Shown here: positions 3,524 through 62,482 of the stretch, one piece after another | Position numbering within the stretch: the first letter of the stretch is position 1 | Layout: every line of letters begins with the position of its first letter | Source of the DNA: Lachnospiraceae bacterium | Lineage (GTDB): Bacteria; Bacillota; Clostridia; Lachnospirales; Lachnospiraceae | Reading direction: 5' to 3' | DNA: 64,000 nucleotides | Assembly: GCA_017552985.1 (NCBI GenBank) | Contig: JAFZNO010000013.1 | Coordinates: 1 to 64,000 of the forward strand | The notes under the pieces: model-generated | Databases searched by the model: none | What the model saw: the letters and a program-made list of their open reading frames with translations, nothing else | What the model was told of the DNA's origin: nothing | Translations under genes and position numbers: made by a program

Positions 3524-4564
3524 CTATTCAAAACGATAAACCGTCACGGAATCATATTCCTTGTCTCCCCCAAAAATGCAGGAAGGGAAATCAGGTTGAT
3601 GAACGGTGTCGGGATAATACTGCGTCTCCAGGCAAAGACCATTTCTGCGTCCGTAAGTTACTCCATCCTTACCCTGCATGGGTGCAATGAAGTTACCTGC
3701 GTAAAACTGCACGCCGGGAAGCGTCGTGTATGCCTTCATCACGCGTCCGCTCTTCGGTCCCTTTACGGTTGCGAACTGGCGAAGATTTCCGTCTGCGCCG
3801 TCAATGATCCAGTTATGATCATAACCGCTCGTCAAAAGAAGCTGTTCCACGGGCTCGCCGATCTCTTTTCCGATCACCTTGGGCTGAGTGAAATCCATGA
3901 CCGTTCCAGCAACGGGCGCCTGCTCGCCGGTAGGAATGGCACCGCGCACCACGGGCGTGTACTTGCTGCAGTTCAAGGTAAGCTCATGACCTTCAATGCT
4001 GCCGGAATTATGTCCGTCCAAATTAAAATACGTGTGATTCGTCAGATTCAGAACCGTCTTCTTGTCACTGCTTGCATGATAATGCAACTCTAAACCGTTA
4101 TTTTCATCCAGCGTGTAAGTGATCTGAACCTTCTTGTTTCCGGGGAAGCCCATGTTGCCGTCCGTATCCTCAAGGGAGAAGCAAACGCTGTTCTCGCCTA
4201 CCTGCGCATCCCAAATGGCCTTGTGATAGCCTTTTTCGTAATCGCTGTGAAGATTATTGGGACCATCGTTTACGGCAAGCTGATACTTTACGCCGTCGAT
4301 CTCAAAGCTCGCGCCGCCGATGCGGTTTGCATTCGGTCCGATCACTGCTCCAAAGAAGCATCCGTTGTTATAATAGTCTTCGCCCTTACCGAATCCAAGA
4401 ACAAGATCATCCAAGGTTCCCTTTGCATCGGGAACAAGGAGCTTTACCAGAATGGCACCGATGTTGGTCACTGCCGCCTGCATGCCCTTCTTATTCTTGA
4501 TCGTATACAGCAGAATCTCACGGCCATCCTTCGCCGTCCCAAAATTTGTTACTTCTACCGCCAT
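3524..4564 (-). CDS. galM: Aldose 1-epimerase (galactose mutarotase)
   Basis: The enzyme interconverts the alpha and beta anomers of galactose and related aldoses in the cytoplasm (Leloir pathway). The 346-residue length fits the family. Visible landmarks are GPNANRIGGA (76-85), His106, and NLTNHTYFNL (about 173-182), which holds the catalytic histidine. A Glu in CLETQYYPD near the C-terminus fits the catalytic base. The start is preceded by GGAAGG. No other galactose genes are nearby, so it may serve general sugar metabolism. Confidence 0.93.
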   Translation of the reverse strand: MAVEVTNFGTAKDGREILLYTIKNKKGMQAAVTNIGAILVKLLVPDAKGTLDDLVLGFGKGEDYYNNGCFFGAVIGPNANRIGGASFEIDGVKYQLAVNDGPNNLHSDYEKGYHKAIWDAQVGENSVCFSLEDTDGNMGFPGNKKVQITYTLDENNGLELHYHASSDKKTVLNLTNHTYFNLDGHNSGSIEGHELTLNCSKYTPVVRGAIPTGEQAPVAGTVMDFTQPKVIGKEIGEPVEQLLLTSGYDHNWIIDGADGNLRQFATVKGPKSGRVMKAYTTLPGVQFYAGNFIAPMQGKDGVTYGRRNGLCLETQYYPDTVHQPDFPSCIFGGDKEYDSVTVYRFE

Positions 4565-8381: not shown

Positions 8382-8442
8382 CACGGGGACGTGTCTGCCT
8401 TCCCGTTGATCAAATCAACTTGAAAACAAACGCGTCCCCGCG
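8382..8442. repeat. GGGGACG-type palindromic element, copy C
   Basis: The imperfect 16-nt arms 8382..8397 and 8427..8442 (13 of 16 matches) each contain GGGGACG or its complement. An inner hairpin, GTTGATCAAATCAAC, lies between them. It sits between the DUF975 gene and the pfk promoter. A short T run follows on the minus strand, so it may also act as a terminator. It shares its core with the elements at 49028, 57498 and 61605. Confidence 0.7.
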
Positions 8443-18780: not shown

Positions 18781-19102
18781 TAAAATCAGAACGCCGGTCT
18801 CCATCCCCCAAAAGGGACCGGAAACCGGCGGTACCACCCTAATTAGCGCCCTATGCGCTCACCTCGATCATTGTTAACGCCAATGACACGTCGCACTTCC
18901 CCGATTCCATGACGCCCGTACGTTCCGGCTTCGCGTCATTTTTTTCGTCTCGCGCGAGACTCCAAGGCAGGTTCAAAGCCTTCCACACAAGAACCTTCCA
19001 GCCACGCCTCCGAACAATACCAACTTTTCGGCCGCGTCACGTTCTCTCTCTGGGGAGCTTCCAAGCTTTTACTAACCCTCTTCATCGTCTTTATGATACG
19101 TG
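18781..19102 (-). promoter_or_regulatory. T-box leader of proS
   Basis: The minus strand carries the T-box sequence AGGGTGGTACCGC (complement of 18828..18840). A GC-rich terminator follows (CGCCGGTTTCCGGTC pairing with GACCGGCG, then TTTT). Upstream is a long structured region with a CCAGAGAGAG block typical of stem I. A CCT at 18969..18971 in GAACCTGCC could be the Pro specifier codon. Uncharged tRNA-Pro would favour the antiterminator and switch proS on. Confidence 0.92.
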
Positions 19103-49027: not shown

Positions 49028-49093
49028 TTACCTTGGTGGCCCGCAGGGACGGGGTTAATGGGTCAAAAAATGGCCTGCCAACCCCGTCCCCAT
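49028..49093. repeat. GGGGACG-type palindromic element, copy A
   Basis: This 66-bp element has perfect arms GGGACGGGGTT (49046..49056) and AACCCCGTCCC (49080..49090). It matches copy B at 57498..57563 except at two positions. It lies between two GNAT genes, in a 184-bp gap that shows nothing else. Confidence 0.9.
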
Positions 49094-49137
49094 GGTCCAC
49101 TTTAGCCCCACATACCCCGATTTGCGCGCCATGCACA

Positions 49138-56897: not shown

Positions 56898-57482
56898 CTA
56901 CCATCTGCCGATCCGCTGATCTAGGAAAAATCCGAGATTAAACCGGATCTCATGTCTTTCTATGTCGCGGTTGGTGTAACAGCAAGTGTCAAATCCAATC
57001 AGTCGAAATCCCTGCGAGCGATAAAACGCGATCGCATTAACGTTACAGGATTGAGTCTCGAGAATGATGGCCCTGCGGCCCTGTTCCTTTGCGATCTCCT
57101 TCGCCTTGTTCATGAGCGCGGTACCAATCCCCTGCCTGTGAAGGGAATCATCCACCCAGAGCTCCGTCACCATCAGGCGGTTGCTCCACTCCTCAGGACA
57201 AACCTCGATGCACGCCAGTAAAATCTTCTTTCCTTCTTCCTCGCGATAAATGCCATAGGCCTCCGCCTTCTCCCAATGATCCTGATACAAGCCGTCTGGA
57301 AAATCATATTCCTCCGGCGTATGCGTCACCGGTGTCTCAAATTTCTTCTTCACCATCTTTGTTTCAAAAGCGTCCGCGCTCTCCGAAATCTCCAGATCGA
57401 AGTATTCCTCCGTCGTATATTTCATCATGATGGGCACGCCCTTCCACTGCTCCTTCGGCAGCGGCACGATTTTATGTTCCAT
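56898..57482 (-). CDS. GNAT family N-acetyltransferase
   Basis: The 194-residue protein has VTELWVDDSLHRQGIGTALM (acetyl-CoA loop) and CNVNAIAFYRSQGFRLIGFD. Streptothricin-acetyltransferase-like members have a similar layout, although no resistance can be inferred. GGAGAAAGAG precedes the ATG. Confidence 0.88.
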   Translation of the reverse strand: MEHKIVPLPKEQWKGVPIMMKYTTEEYFDLEISESADAFETKMVKKKFETPVTHTPEEYDFPDGLYQDHWEKAEAYGIYREEEGKKILLACIEVCPEEWSNRLMVTELWVDDSLHRQGIGTALMNKAKEIAKEQGRRAIILETQSCNVNAIAFYRSQGFRLIGFDTCCYTNRDIERHEIRFNLGFFLDQRIGRW

Positions 57483-57497
57483 AACTCTTTCTCCTAA

Positions 57498-57563
57498 TTA
57501 TCTTGGTGGCCCGCAGGGACGGGGTTAATGGGTCAAAAAATGGCCTGCTAACCCCGTCCCCAT
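57498..57563. repeat. GGGGACG-type palindromic element, copy B
   Basis: This 66-bp copy matches copy A (49028..49093) at all but two positions. The arms are 57516..57526 and 57550..57560. It overlaps the last 13 codons, including the stop, of the peptidase E gene. Confidence 0.9.
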
Positions 57564-58211
57564 ATCTTCCGTAAGCAATCTGAGTTCCCTATTCTCCACG
57601 CGGTAGATTCTTCCGACAATGTCAATCTTCCCATCCTTGATAAAGAATGCGCTCATGTCCTCCATGGCGTAAACCACGCGGTCCTCAGACATTTGGAGCG
57701 TCTTTTCGTAGCGCCAGGTATCCTCCGGGTCATGGTGGCAGGTCACGGTCATATTCGTAAATCCCAGTCCCGGAAATGGTTCCATGGACTCAAAGAAATC
57801 CACGGTATTCTTTGCCATGTTCATCGAGCCTGCGCTAACGCCGAAAACTGCCGCATGGCAATGAAGCAGCGCCTCGTAACAGCCTTTCTCCTTGATCAGA
57901 TCAAGCTGCTCCTCACAGACTCCGCCTCCCATAAGAAAGATGCAGTCGGCATGCTCCACAAGTTCTTTTGCCAAAGAAGGTTCGGTTCTCTGATCGATCA
58001 CCGTATGCTTATCAAATGCCAAATCCTGCTCTGCAAACATTTCATGCATTCCGTCACAGTCATCGTCATTTTGTGCATAATCGAGAGGACGCGCGGTGAT
58101 AAAAACAATGCTCTTCCTCACCGTCAGTTCCTCCCGTAATCGCTTTGTAATTTCTTCCGAAAAATGACGTTCCGGGAATCCACTAAATACGGCCAAAAAT
58201 TCTTTTTTCAT
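57525..58211 (-). CDS. Peptidase E-like serine peptidase (family S51)
   Basis: The 228-residue protein has the nucleophile block VFGVSAGSMNMA (Ser126) and VTCHHDPEDTWRYEK with a likely catalytic His. Family S51 cleaves Asp-X dipeptides and includes cyanophycinase. The final residues MGTGLAGHFLTH and the TAA come from a palindromic repeat, so the natural C-terminus has been replaced. GGGGGATAT precedes the ATG. Exact substrate not known. Confidence 0.83.
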   Translation of the reverse strand: MKKEFLAVFSGFPERHFSEEITKRLREELTVRKSIVFITARPLDYAQNDDDCDGMHEMFAEQDLAFDKHTVIDQRTEPSLAKELVEHADCIFLMGGGVCEEQLDLIKEKGCYEALLHCHAAVFGVSAGSMNMAKNTVDFFESMEPFPGLGFTNMTVTCHHDPEDTWRYEKTLQMSEDRVVYAMEDMSAFFIKDGKIDIVGRIYRVENRELRLLTEDMGTGLAGHFLTH

Positions 58212-58231
58212 ATATCCCCCATTGTGTCTTC

Positions 58232-59527
58232 CTACACGCCCGCTACGGGTACGTCCTCAAAGCACATGGCGTATGGACCCACAAAGTCAGCTGATTTCTG
58301 GATCTCTTTCGAGAAATGCATGTTGGTCTGTGAATCTAAAATGCTGCCGTTGATGGAACCGCCGGTTACGGGCGTAACCTTTTCTCCGTCATACAGGAAA
58401 GCAAGTCTGATCTCACCGCCGAAGTGACCAGTGAAATCATCCATCTGGAAATCCGAGAAATTCACCACCCAAAGATATGGCTGCTTCTTCATGTCCTCAA
58501 CCGACATCGTTCCAGGAGCCACGTTGACGCAGCCGAAAAATCCCGTCGGCTCAATTCCTAAATATCTTGAGAAACGCAGGCCCCCGTAATAGGTTTTCAG
58601 CACGCCATTATCTAACAATTCCAGTTCCCTCTGCCAGATTCCTTCATAGCTCAAAGGCTCGGTGGGCACCAGCGTCATGCTGACCTTGTCGCCCTTTACT
58701 TCTGCAACTTCGCCATCCGCATTGAGAGCCTGCACGTTCTGACCAACTTCAAACGTTGAATACCCTGCATAGATATAACCAGCCTGCGCTCTTCCGCTGT
58801 AATAGCTAAAGACGTCATTTACGTAGGAATCACTGATGATCACTCTGTATTTTCCAGCCTTGGGAGCTTCCGTCGCCTTTGCCCTGTCAATCGTATATTC
58901 AAGAGTTTGGCGAACCTTTGCTTTTAATGACTCGCAGTCAAGATCATTATATCTAAAGTCTTTATACGTTTCTACGTCCTGAGGCTCCTTGCACTGTGCT
59001 ACAAACTCACCGCTTACGCTTCTCTTTGTATAACCGGACTCAATACCCGTTGACGACAGGATCTCGACGTTTGATTCATAAGCGAATACTTCCGCAGAAT
59101 TGATAAACACGTCTTCCCTGTTATCTTCCGCAAACAATGCTTCAGCAGTCTTCTCACAGCACTCTTCAAGCGTATAATTGAATAAATCGGATTCCATGGT
59201 GATGAACTTGTTTTCGGTGCATTCCATAAGATCATACGTAGGATTGCACACAAAGGATGCTGCAAGATACGCGCGGCTTAAGCTGGCATCGATCTCTGCA
59301 TCCGTCATGCCGTTATAAACGTATACGGAGGAATTTCCTTTCATCTTTTGGCCGTCTTTCTCAAAGGATCTGTATACGTTTACGTTATAAGTTTTCGTGT
59401 TTTCCGCTCTCTTGCAATCCAGGCTCTTTTTCACAAAAAACATTTGCGCACTTTTATAGGACGTTATGCTAATGATATATTCTTCAATGTTAAGCCTCTT
59501 CAATGAGGCAATGATTTTATCTTTCAT
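58232..59527 (-). CDS. TldE/PmbA family protein
   Basis: The 431-residue protein is the metal-free partner of TldD. It has FAYESNVEILSSTG and the family's C-terminal SINGSILDSQ segment. In E. coli TldD/TldE form a heterodimeric protease that processes small modified peptides. The start at 59527 has GGAGAGG upstream. It follows tldD by 17 bp. Confidence 0.87.
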   Translation of the reverse strand: MKDKIIASLKRLNIEEYIISITSYKSAQMFFVKKSLDCKRAENTKTYNVNVYRSFEKDGQKMKGNSSVYVYNGMTDAEIDASLSRAYLAASFVCNPTYDLMECTENKFITMESDLFNYTLEECCEKTAEALFAEDNREDVFINSAEVFAYESNVEILSSTGIESGYTKRSVSGEFVAQCKEPQDVETYKDFRYNDLDCESLKAKVRQTLEYTIDRAKATEAPKAGKYRVIISDSYVNDVFSYYSGRAQAGYIYAGYSTFEVGQNVQALNADGEVAEVKGDKVSMTLVPTEPLSYEGIWQRELELLDNGVLKTYYGGLRFSRYLGIEPTGFFGCVNVAPGTMSVEDMKKQPYLWVVNFSDFQMDDFTGHFGGEIRLAFLYDGEKVTPVTGGSINGSILDSQTNMHFSKEIQKSADFVGPYAMCFEDVPVAGV

Positions 59528-59544
59528 ATTGCACCTCTCCATTA

Positions 59545-60975
59545 TTAACCTAATCTGATCCTTGCCTTGATATAAGGGCCGCCGTCCGATACCTTGACCC
59601 ACTCCTTATAGCCCTTGCCACAGTAACCAGTACCACCAGCCTCGATGCTGTCGGATATCATGGAAATGGACTTTAACAGATCAGGTACGTAACCGGTCAA
59701 AACGATTGGCGAGAAGATCTTCCCTGTCAGCTTACCATCCTTGATTTCCCTGGCGATGTCAACCATGAGCTGAATGCCCCAGTTTTTCGGATCCTCCATG
59801 CCCGAAGAAGCCTGGCATAGTAAGAATCCATAATCGATGGATGCGATCATGTCCTCAACCTTACTTGTACCAGCTTCAAAAATGGTATTGGTCATTCTGG
59901 TATAAGCTTTTCTAGTGGTATCCTGGCGTCTGCCGTTACCAGTGCCTGCCACGCCCAAATGCATTGCCGACTGCGCATCGCAAATTCCAGTCTTCAGGAT
60001 TCCTTTCTCTATAATGATGGTGTCATGTGCAGCCACGCCTTCATCGTCGAAAAAGTAAGTGGCTACCTGGGGGATGGTGCTTGCGCCGTCATGCATTGTG
60101 ATCAGTTCAGATGCCACCTGCTTTCCAATAAACTCCTTTGCCTGCGCCCTGTCCTTCACAAACATGTCCATTTCCACGCCGTGTCCGAATGCTTCATGCA
60201 CGATCATACCAGTCACGTCAGGCTCACAGATACAATCATATTCTCCGGGAATCATGGGTTCTGCCGAAAGAAGCTCTATCGCCGTCTTACATGCATCCGC
60301 CAGATTACTCTCCAAGGTATCCAGCACCTCAATGCCACCCAGCATGGATACGGGCTTATACCCATTCTGAATCTCTTCTCCATCCTTTGCCATGGCCACA
60401 ATGTAGCCACAGGACCACATCACGTTCTGGGTAAGATCCTTATTCCTTGACAAGAATATCTTTGAATATTTCTGATAAGAGAAGGCCACGCTGCAGTCGA
60501 TGATCTTCTCATCATAAGCACGTCCCTTTTCCGAGATCCGCGTCAAAAGGTCAATGATGTTATTATCTCCCTTTTCTTCGGGATCAACTTCATACTCCGT
60601 ACTCTCATTGATATACAGCTTCTCGTCCTCAACGCCGTCAAAGCCGAAAGCCGTAACCCCTTCAGGCAAAGTCTTTCCAAGTGTATCCAATCTTTTGGTG
60701 ATCTCATCAAATACTGCGTCCACGGTATCCTCTTCTATGGCACTGAAGCTGTACTCTGCAGCCTTTCCGTTATCATATACCTTCACGCAAAATCCGCGTT
60801 CCGACAACGTTCCATCCTCCGAGATATTGGTCCCCGTCTTAGACACGCGATAGTTGGTGCTCTTTGAGTCATTTGCAAGAATGGATGCGTATTCATACTT
60901 CGCAAGAAGCTTCTCGAGCAGCTTTTTCAATATGGGTTTCTTTAGTTTTAAATATTCGCTTTCTTTTACTTTCAT
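59545..60975 (-). CDS. tldD: TldD family metalloprotease
   Basis: The 476-residue protein has the zinc motif HEAFGH (260-265), followed by GVEMD, and the family's N-terminal pattern ATNYRVSK-like segment and late SSGMEDPKNWGIQ. It needs the adjacent TldE for activity. No modified-peptide precursor was recognised nearby, so its target is unknown. The start at 60975 gives the family length. Confidence 0.9.
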   Translation of the reverse strand: MKVKESEYLKLKKPILKKLLEKLLAKYEYASILANDSKSTNYRVSKTGTNISEDGTLSERGFCVKVYDNGKAAEYSFSAIEEDTVDAVFDEITKRLDTLGKTLPEGVTAFGFDGVEDEKLYINESTEYEVDPEEKGDNNIIDLLTRISEKGRAYDEKIIDCSVAFSYQKYSKIFLSRNKDLTQNVMWSCGYIVAMAKDGEEIQNGYKPVSMLGGIEVLDTLESNLADACKTAIELLSAEPMIPGEYDCICEPDVTGMIVHEAFGHGVEMDMFVKDRAQAKEFIGKQVASELITMHDGASTIPQVATYFFDDEGVAAHDTIIIEKGILKTGICDAQSAMHLGVAGTGNGRRQDTTRKAYTRMTNTIFEAGTSKVEDMIASIDYGFLLCQASSGMEDPKNWGIQLMVDIAREIKDGKLTGKIFSPIVLTGYVPDLLKSISMISDSIEAGGTGYCGKGYKEWVKVSDGGPYIKARIRLG

Positions 60976-60997
60976 ATTCTCGTTCTCTCCTGTTGTT

Positions 60998-61576
60998 TTA
61001 TGCTTTGATTCGATAAATAACACATAAAGCGAGCAATAGGAAAATGCTCCCCAATCCAACCTTCAAGGCAATGTCCTTCACCTTACCGTCTGCGTCCCGT
61101 ACTTCGTTCAGGATGATTTTTTCCAACTCCAGCTCCCCATCATAGCTTTGCGTTTGCCTCGCTGCCAAATCATCCTTCATCGTAATCAGTTTGCCGCTGA
61201 CGTCACCTGCCTTGTTCTCTAAGTCATTATCATCGGCAAGCGTTCTGGCCGCCATCACTACTGGCTCGCCATTCTTATCCAAAAATTGAACCGTGTAACA
61301 TACATAGGTAAGATCCTCGTAATGCTTAACGGAATTTACCTTGACGGTGTTTTCGTAAAATCTTCCAAGCACCTGGTACTCCCCTGCGGAAAGCACGTAA
61401 TATGCCGTTCCTGCCTCAGAATTCTCATCACAAAGTTGCCGAATTTCGCTCTTGGAAAGACTCCTGATCTTTATAGGCTTATTCGCAGGAATCAGAATCC
61501 AAATTAGAAAACCGCATATCGCGGCGAATCCCAGTGCAAACATCCATCCCTGGAGAATCGTTCTTGTTTTATCCAT
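60998..61576 (-). CDS. Two-helix membrane protein of unknown function
   Basis: The 192-residue protein has an N-terminal helix (about 10-29), a hydrophilic extracytoplasmic part (about 35-165) and a C-terminal helix (about 172-189). No family is recognised. AGGAGCTCTGGG precedes the ATG. It ends 22 bp before tldD, so it may belong to the tldD/tldE transcript. Confidence 0.6.
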   Translation of the reverse strand: MDKTRTILQGWMFALGFAAICGFLIWILIPANKPIKIRSLSKSEIRQLCDENSEAGTAYYVLSAGEYQVLGRFYENTVKVNSVKHYEDLTYVCYTVQFLDKNGEPVVMAARTLADDNDLENKAGDVSGKLITMKDDLAARQTQSYDGELELEKIILNEVRDADGKVKDIALKVGLGSIFLLLALCVIYRIKA

Positions 61577-61604
61577 CCCAGAGCTCCTTTTGTCCGTTAA
61601 TCCC

Positions 61605-61695
61605 GGGGCACCAGGGAGGGTTCTCTTTGCCCCATTTTTCTATTTTTTGCAAGCAACCTCCTGTGTGGGTCAAAGAGAACCGTCCCCAGTGACCC
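61605..61695. repeat. GGGGACG-type palindromic element, copy D
   Basis: The imperfect inverted repeat has 29-nt arms, 61605..61633 and 61667..61695, with 24 of 29 positions matching. The right arm contains CCGTCCCC and supplies the last codons and TGA of the methyltransferase gene. It is a different sequence type from copies A and B but shares the core. Confidence 0.85.
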
Positions 61696-62482
61696 TGCCC
61701 TGTATGATCATCGAGAGGGGGAATCCGCTGCGATCCACCTCGCCAAAGCCTCCGCTGAGGTCGTAATCAAATTCCTGCAGTCCCGTAATGACGATCCCGT
61801 TACGGCACATTCCCGTCATGATCTCGGACATGGAATGGGTATAGTCGGTAAACGTCTTGGACTTATAGCACTTTTGAGTCATGTAGTACATGCCTCCGTT
61901 GCTTTCCCATTTATGCTCGAAATAGGAATAATGGCATTCCTTTTTATGCTCCGCTTCATAGGGTTCATCCCCTTCCGTTGCCAGCATGTTCGTGCAGGGA
62001 TGCTGCTCATTGATCACGATGGCAGCGCCAGGCTTCATGCACTTTGCCACGATGGCAAAGAAGCGATCCAGATCTTCAAACCAACAAAGAGCTCCAATGG
62101 TGATGATCACCAAGTCAAACTCTTCCTTATGGCTGTCATCAACGTCATAGACGTTGGCAGCCACAAATTCACAGGGCAGGTTCAGTTCCTTTGCTTTTTC
62201 ATTGGCAAAAGCCACCTGATTCTCAGCAATGTCAAAGCCGACACCCTTCTTTGCTTTTCCGCTCTTTACAAGGGACAGCAGCTCACGCCCGTTATTGCAG
62301 CAAAACTGACCGATCACCTTTCCTTCCAAGTCCATTGATCTAAGGATGTTCTGCGTCTCCTGATTGAAGAACGCGTAATCTTCCTTCCCTATTTTTTCTA
62401 CAATGTCCGCGCCCCAGGAAGCATCTCTGTTATCAAAGGCTTCCTCCCACGCGGCTTTATTTCCTTCAATGTATTTTTCCAT
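61670..62482 (-). CDS. Class I SAM-dependent methyltransferase
   Basis: The 270-residue protein has VIGQFCCNNGREL (SAM loop), GFDIAENQVAFA, VAANVYDVDD and DLVIITIGALCWFEDL. It is a small-molecule-type methyltransferase; the acceptor is unknown. The last residues RVTGDGSL and stop are encoded by a palindromic repeat; related proteins end soon after the LSMII strand. GAGAAGGGG is upstream. Confidence 0.85.
   Translation of the reverse strand: MEKYIEGNKAAWEEAFDNRDASWGADIVEKIGKEDYAFFNQETQNILRSMDLEGKVIGQFCCNNGRELLSLVKSGKAKKGVGFDIAENQVAFANEKAKELNLPCEFVAANVYDVDDSHKEEFDLVIITIGALCWFEDLDRFFAIVAKCMKPGAAIVINEQHPCTNMLATEGDEPYEAEHKKECHYSYFEHKWESNGGMYYMTQKCYKSKTFTDYTHSMSEIMTGMCRNGIVITGLQEFDYDLSGGFGEVDRSGFPLSMIIQGRVTGDGSL

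Follow-up and report, generated by a model that had tools for sequence, protein, structure and literature searches.

Palindromic hairpins that end two genes in a Lachnospiraceae genome are probably insertions of two REPIN-like mobile families

In a stretch of 64,000 nucleotides from a Lachnospiraceae bacterium (assembly GCA_017552985.1, contig JAFZNO010000013.1, positions 1 to 64,000; here called the window), two palindromic elements, copy B and copy D, provide the last codons and the stop of a peptidase E-like gene and of a methyltransferase gene, respectively. In our judgement there is a probability of roughly 85% that the two elements are insertions of two REPIN-like (REP, repetitive extragenic palindrome) mobile hairpin families, each of which has its own RAYT-like (REP-associated tyrosine transposase) HUH/Y1 transposase in relatives of the host. 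The hairpins very probably move, a conclusion based on their repetition, the covariation of their stems, relatives that are free of the insertions, matching units at the flanks of transposases, and the many copies present in several genomes with a transposase. The genome that carries the window (completeness 98.5%) was examined within a comparison set of 138 genomes of the genus. The features on which the argument turns are listed below, with scores from two covariance models, R1 for the B type and R2, which was built from eight units of the D family.

57525..58211, minus strand: peptidase E-like gene (Peptidase_S51; PF03575, E 1.9e-10)
57504..57570, minus strand: copy B, an inverted-doublet palindrome with core GGGGACGGGGTT (R1 match, 84.2 bits)
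57525..57563, minus strand: codons 217-228 of peptidase E (MGTGLAGHFLTH) with its TAA, supplied by copy B (window open reading frame and sequence reading)
61670..62482, minus strand: S-adenosylmethionine-dependent methyltransferase gene (PF13649, E 4.4e-12)
61603..61697, no strand assigned: copy D, an inverted pair of hairpin units (R2 matches)
61665-61697, minus strand: copy D unit with core GGGGACGGTTCT and arms GGGTCA/TGACCC (R2, 41.8 bits)
61603-61635, plus strand: copy D unit with core AGGGAGGGTTCT and arms GGGGCA/TGCCCC (R2, 41.0 bits)
61670..61693, minus strand: codons 264-270 of the methyltransferase (VTGDGSL) with its TGA, supplied by copy D (window open reading frame and sequence reading)

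The final 12 codons and TAA of peptidase E, 39 bases at 57525-57563, lie inside the copy B palindrome, and the methyltransferase tail VTGDGSL and its TGA, 24 bases at 61670-61693, fall within one unit of copy D, both as the original prediction had stated. Folded as single strands, copy B gave a z score of -3.79, with none of 200 shuffles equally good, and copy D one of -3.75, with 1/200 shuffles equally good. Rfam returned nothing at gathering scores for either site.

Matches to the methyltransferase were found in 61/138 genomes at E<=0.001, and eight besides the host are close orthologues (86-98%). The element is absent from the gene end in all eight, where the proteins finish with RKL, RRQ, RKDR, RKDA, RK, RMTDGRTGI, RKL and MKMP. 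In one of these genomes, G141, the bases that follow the stop match those after copy D, with 27/32 identical in an ungapped alignment and 0/300 shuffles scoring as high; the site is thus empty in G141. The matched stretch is the start region of the next gene downstream, which is still recognisable behind the G141 methyltransferase stop and is placed in the window as follows.

60998..61576, minus strand: gene downstream of the methyltransferase, 192 aa (no Pfam match)

The comparison with G141 indicates that copy D replaces the last native codons and the stop of the methyltransferase.

For peptidase E, 15 genomes of the genus besides the host gave matches at E<=1e-20. The closest of these (95%), from genome G134 (L118/L232), lacks the element and reads LLTEEDVKELVMEYKIVPLPKEQWKG; there the native tail continues into an acetyltransferase of the GNAT family as one open frame of 416 aa. 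The same two parts are separate genes in the window, with copy B between them, and the sequence AGGAG now precedes the ATG of the second.

56898..57482, minus strand: GNAT acetyltransferase gene beside peptidase E (PF00583)

As G134 has a fused frame and no element, copy B probably split a peptidase E-GNAT fusion. The G141 peptidase E ends in LLTEEDLKELER. Among 51 named peptidase E loci, 32 are in frame with a methyltransferase (recognised by sequence signature), one with GNAT and two with other sequence, and 16 stand alone. The tail found in the window occurs at none of the 51, and is also absent from the 15 genomes matched above. A few distant or partial matches extend beyond residue 216, to 218 in G031 and to 221 in L279. 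In L274, which comes from another species and is titled Butyrivibrio sp., a single B-type unit in reversed orientation sits at about 5645, at the same peptidase E codon, where it gives VDH and TAA; we take it as an insertion independent of copy B. At L245, around position 3648, peptidase E seems to keep only the last residues of a fused methyltransferase, as if the middle had been lost.

These comparisons bear on an alternative under which both tails would be native to the genes and the palindromes mere chance features. Tails do vary considerably between species, and the G123 methyltransferase has a longer one (RMTDGRTGI) with no GGGGACG palindrome. However, the B repeat recurs at 19 genomic places and the ending DGSL is supplied to three genes by one kind of unit, and the chance that the tails are native is practically negligible. 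The reading was rejected, as the tails are absent from the methyltransferase and peptidase E ends of relatives. The earlier proposal that both coding regions were cut short and finished by the element was borne out by the homologues, namely all eight methyltransferases and the closest peptidase E relative; the same tails without a palindrome were seen at none of the 51 named peptidase E loci, and 8/8 methyltransferases end otherwise.

B and D had been put forward as copies of one kind of palindrome. They have GGGGACG in common, and are two separate families. A single common repeat was rejected, as the cores (GGGGACGGGGTT and GGGGACGGTTCT), the stems and the neighbouring transposases in relatives all differ. 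Repetition elsewhere in the genome, which the original prediction had required, was found for both. The B type is present at 19 good places (E 1.2e-14 or better), on which R1 and BLAST agree; the R1 search, in which 150/1025 candidate stretches were scored, gave 40 rows over both strands, and BLAST with copy B gave 36 rows, some of them weak or on both strands. Beyond the 19 places there is a weaker match on contig C89 (E 0.007). One of the B-type copies lies in the window and is 98% identical to copy B over 62 bases (BLAST).

49034..49100, minus strand: second window copy of the B family (R1 match, 84.9 bits)

Units of the D family read TGGGTCAnnGGGGACGGTTCTnnnTGACCCA. R2 returned 46 rows at E<=10, of which 19 were at E<=0.01, with 150/654 candidates scored. 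When set side by side, the R2 rows with fetched loci had cores of GGGGACGGTTCT or close to it and of GGGGACGTGTCT or close to it, with stems GGGTCA/TGACCC, GTGTCA/TGACAC, or mixtures of these.

In each unit, GACG/CGTC sits in a loop of about 17 nt between the arms. The arms covary: 92.2% of cells are paired, compared with 83.0% after shuffling and 51.5% in the best slid control, and 54 stem changes were double-sided, compared with 22.6 in shuffled alignments. The alignment used (81 matches, 71 distinct rows, 55 loci) had been fitted to the structure and is biased in its favour, and kinship among the rows raises these figures. Copy D and the 19 B-type places are inverted pairs that form one larger hairpin, and many other units in the genome are single. 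At four B-type copies (contigs C76, C62, C108 and C26) a further common stretch follows the palindrome (AGAGCTCATAGCCTACCG...) as part of a mosaic; these contigs, and also C2 and C90, end near B-type copies. Whether the longer B-type copies reflect a large insertion sequence was considered; this is not supported, as no transposase open reading frame was seen by eye on those stretches in translations viewed to 400 aa.

The original prediction had pointed to a REP-associated transposase. The lead was right in kind: RAYT-like Y1 genes with matching units are present in four close relatives, and none was found in the host. In G046, G123 and G091 (L220, L221 and L222) a RAYT-like HUH/Y1 gene is flanked by D-type inverted units, and in G141 (L225) by B-type inverted units. 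Dispersed copies of the flanking units are present in the same genomes. The three D-type-flanked transposases are 60-69% identical to one another and the G141 protein is 33-34% identical to them. All five RAYT-like proteins of relatives that were scanned contain PF01797, and HxH and YxxxNP motifs were identified by eye in 9/9 aligned proteins, all from this genus, from which a tree was made. In the G141 protein, HTH_7 (E 1.1e-3) and HTH_23 (E 0.012) were both below their cut-offs; the G123 protein returned only Raf1_HTH (E 0.31), and three other proteins only Y1_Tnp at E<=0.01. RAYT-like genes with different flanking repeats that carry related motifs occur in G003, G024, G048, G105 and G132. 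Distant RAYT-like genes in G105 (L223), G131 (L229) and G132 (L226) have flanking repeats of their own, with GGGGACGG and other cores, and further pairs of unit and transposase in the genus are likely.

The distribution of the units across the genus is consistent with this pairing. The D-type model, run with strict filters and 51 candidates scored per genome, matched 10/138 genomes at E<=0.001, and its rows number 54 in G046 and 62 in G123; a transposase in the copy-rich G123 was predicted before the search result was known, and was found. A profile of four RAYT-size proteins matched 12/138 genomes, two of them weakly. These include 4/10 D-type-positive genomes and 8/128 others (both weak matches among the latter; Fisher p 0.005, with kinship uncorrected). 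The B-type model matched 9/138 genomes, with the most rows in the host (34) and in G141 (30, representing 17 places).

Several observations weigh against this reading. Transposition itself was not observed. In 7/8 methyltransferase orthologues the sequence behind the gene is unrelated to the window, and the strict empty site therefore depends on G141 alone. At neither gene is the insertion clean, as native bases were replaced or lost at both. The NCBIfam family REP_Tyr_transpos (NF047646) scored 59.3 bits for the G024 protein, 63.8 for G003 and 45.8 for G046, below its cut-off of 80, although it is the best family for each of them nonetheless. The host has many copies and no transposase that we could find: PF01797, which matches 20/61 genomes of the genus (many of these being short IS200-like frames), has no match in the whole genome, and the four-protein profile has none either. 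Copy number and transposase also part company in two relatives, G091, which has a D-type RAYT and only five D-type matches, and G011, which has 19 matches and no RAYT. For the host, several contigs end near B-type copies, and a flanked transposase could lie in an assembly gap; the gene may sit in such a gap or may have been lost from this lineage.

The two window genes are not the only ones that end in an element. We examined 45 element contexts in the genome (19 B type and 26 from the R2 model), each with a fetched locus, hits lacking one being excluded; gene calls were crude, and the change of native tail was examined at the two window genes only. In 8/45 contexts the stop codon lies inside the element, 22-43 nt deep. 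Together, 22 elements meet 23 gene ends, with the stop 22-43 nt inside the element at eight, at its edge (-1 to +3) at five and 2-13 nt before it at ten. Besides peptidase E and the methyltransferase, the eight genes encode an ATPase with two ABC stretches, which we take to be ABC-F-like, a GNAT protein, a HAD-type phosphatase, an AlkZ-GNAT protein, a zinc-ribbon protein and an alpha/beta-hydrolase-like protein (L134, L144, L149, L162, L170 and L185 are the six loci), the last two labels coming from weak matches. Three of the eight genes have a DGSL ending, supplied by one kind of unit read in a single frame; this sameness arises in part because the D-type unit holds a stop in one frame only. 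Two others of the same set end in SGPxGRG, from the B type. Elsewhere, at L180 (C118:3516-3546), truA (tRNA pseudouridine synthase A) contains an in-frame GGGGACGTGTCT unit, which codes for approximately LCHGDVSADTG; among solved TruA chains, the sole comparison made, the length of this region varies.

The original prediction suggested that the elements move or entered at gene 3' ends, with their frame tolerated. Mobility is very probable, as set out above, and the bias towards 3' ends is modest. After 7/45 elements that the crude gene caller had set inside open reading frames were left out, 38 could be scored, of which 20 overlap or lie within 10 nt of a gene 3' end, compared with six for a 5' end. 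Random placement in the window and the fetched loci puts 27% of 57 nt stretches and 21% of 31 nt stretches near a 3' end, and a similar share near a 5' end. Against this background the binomial p value is 0.026 for B-type units and 0.0008 for the rest, and with the window alone as background the values are 0.13 and 0.012. The statistic is weak, and the bias may reflect tolerance rather than targeting.

Placement above random (20/38) is also what would be expected if the hairpins were retained at gene ends because they act as transcription terminators or stabilise mRNA, and had spread by gene conversion rather than by transposition. A run of at least five T within 15 nt follows 5/22 copies that meet a gene 3' end. 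Such a run is missing at copies B and D and at 15 others of the 22, many copies lie far from 3' ends, one of them inside truA, and the families match units that adjoin transposases in relatives. We regard this explanation as quite improbable.

A rearrangement was considered specifically for copy B, which could mark a breakpoint at which recombination between dispersed copies joined peptidase E to new downstream DNA. On the side that faces peptidase E, copy B has no outer arm (GTGGACC); at the outer-arm position most full B-type copies have GTGGACCATGGGG or similar, and copy B has GGAAGATATGGGG. Moreover, the methyltransferase that is fused to peptidase E in 32/51 named relatives is found alone in the host, on contig C62 (L044, C62:1-867), where it shares 74% identity with the fused part of L073 across 277 aligned positions and its TAG stop stands directly at a B-type copy, one of the five edge cases. 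In the closest relative (95%), however, peptidase E adjoins the same GNAT and no element is present, from which it appears that these neighbours were probably together before. A breakpoint is therefore an unlikely account of copy B, and insertion remains the better one.

Each unit has a short, sequence-variable stem that encloses a loop with the constant GGGGACG, and inverted pairs of units are common. If the hairpins are mobile, the transposase presumably recognises the hairpin as single-stranded DNA, cuts it and joins copies to DNA at new sites. A copy that arrives within the final codons of a gene, or immediately behind its stop, would survive, as the frame enters the unit and meets a stop there: in the D type this would be the TGA in the closing arm TGACCC, and in the B type the TAG in GGGGTTAG or the TAA in CCATTAA. 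At peptidase E, the insertion of copy B would have replaced the native tail and parted the frame shared with GNAT. We infer that 3' ends are favoured mainly through tolerance. It is conceivable, though not likely, that the units are not merely tolerated at gene ends but steered to them, for example through a choice of targets around stop codons or of strands that transcription exposes, and serve as portable tail-and-stop modules by which fused genes are cut apart again; the independent L274 insertion at the same codon, DGSL on three genes and the parted peptidase E-GNAT frame are the pointers in this direction.

Two further features of the window lie apart from these families. Another hairpin, with arms containing CGGGGACGTGT and ACGCGTCCCCG, is matched by neither R1 nor R2, and a T-box leader is slightly above the Rfam gathering score.

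8384-8440: hairpin with arms containing CGGGGACGTGT and ACGCGTCCCCG
18810-19094, minus strand: T-box leader

The closest kinds of known system are REPINs and the RAYTs associated with terminal inverted repeats (TIRs); we claim no membership of the latter, as the flank motif is off by one base. According to Di Nocera (2013, PMC3733652), REPs are situated close to gene 3' ends, the ends of GTAG REPs often supply the stop codon TAG to flanking genes, and some RAYTs, termed TIRYT, have TIRs with GGGGWSAS instead of REPs. REPs have also been described directly behind rayt stop codons (Nunvar 2010, PMC2817692). As in REPINs and GTAG REPs, the units described here form inverted pairs of short palindromes, adjoin RAYTs, are mainly intergenic and near 3' ends, and sometimes supply a stop. 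They differ in having the constant part in the loop and in their host among Lachnospiraceae relatives. The copy D family has no GT[AG]G foot, its units starting (T/C)GGGTCA or (T/C)GTGTCA, and several B-type copies start with GTGG, although copy B does not. CGTC REPs and Rickettsia palindromic elements (RPE) resemble them in that palindromes enter reading frames and encode residues; in CGTC REPs, however, CGTC is at an unpaired end rather than in the loop, and these REPs are reported as having no dedicated transposase. We did not find, in the open-licence papers searched, a Lachnospiraceae family with constant loop and varying stem, its pairing with two transposases, or a REP that parted a fused gene.

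The likeness to TIRYT lies in a Y1/HUH gene, here with open frames of 246-296 aa, that stands between inverted repeats with GGGGAC, which are also dispersed, singly or in pairs. Of the C-terminal helix-turn-helix or DnaA-like domain expected of that kind, there is a weak hint of a helix-turn-helix in the G141 protein. The majority flank motif given for TIRYT is GGGG[AT][CG]A[CG], whereas here it is GGGGACG, with G as base 7, in units of GGGGACGG or GGGGACGT. A further difference is that each repeat here is a hairpin in which part of the loop is constant and the stem covaries, and that the two families match different transposases. Quentin (2018, PMC6006769) placed 20/26 TIR-associated RAYTs in TnpAY1 subclass 2.1, which ranks there as second largest among the Y1 subclasses; RAYT group 1 falls within it, and helix-turn-helix C-termini are described for it. 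REP-like sequences were reported there as not found for this subclass by automatic or manual search; the automatic rules, as that source gives them, called for GTAG or GTGG and short hairpins with a loop of 2-5 nt, compared with about 17 nt here. Should the transposases described here belong to subclass 2.1, two of its members would be paired, in close relatives, with hairpin families distinct from each other, and the specificity of these transposases could be tested directly. REPs that supply stops were already known; the pairing with transposases and the splitting of a gene look new, and the window, with a close relative that lacks the insertion, offers a worked case in which a tiny hairpin appears to have rewritten protein ends and parted a fused reading frame.

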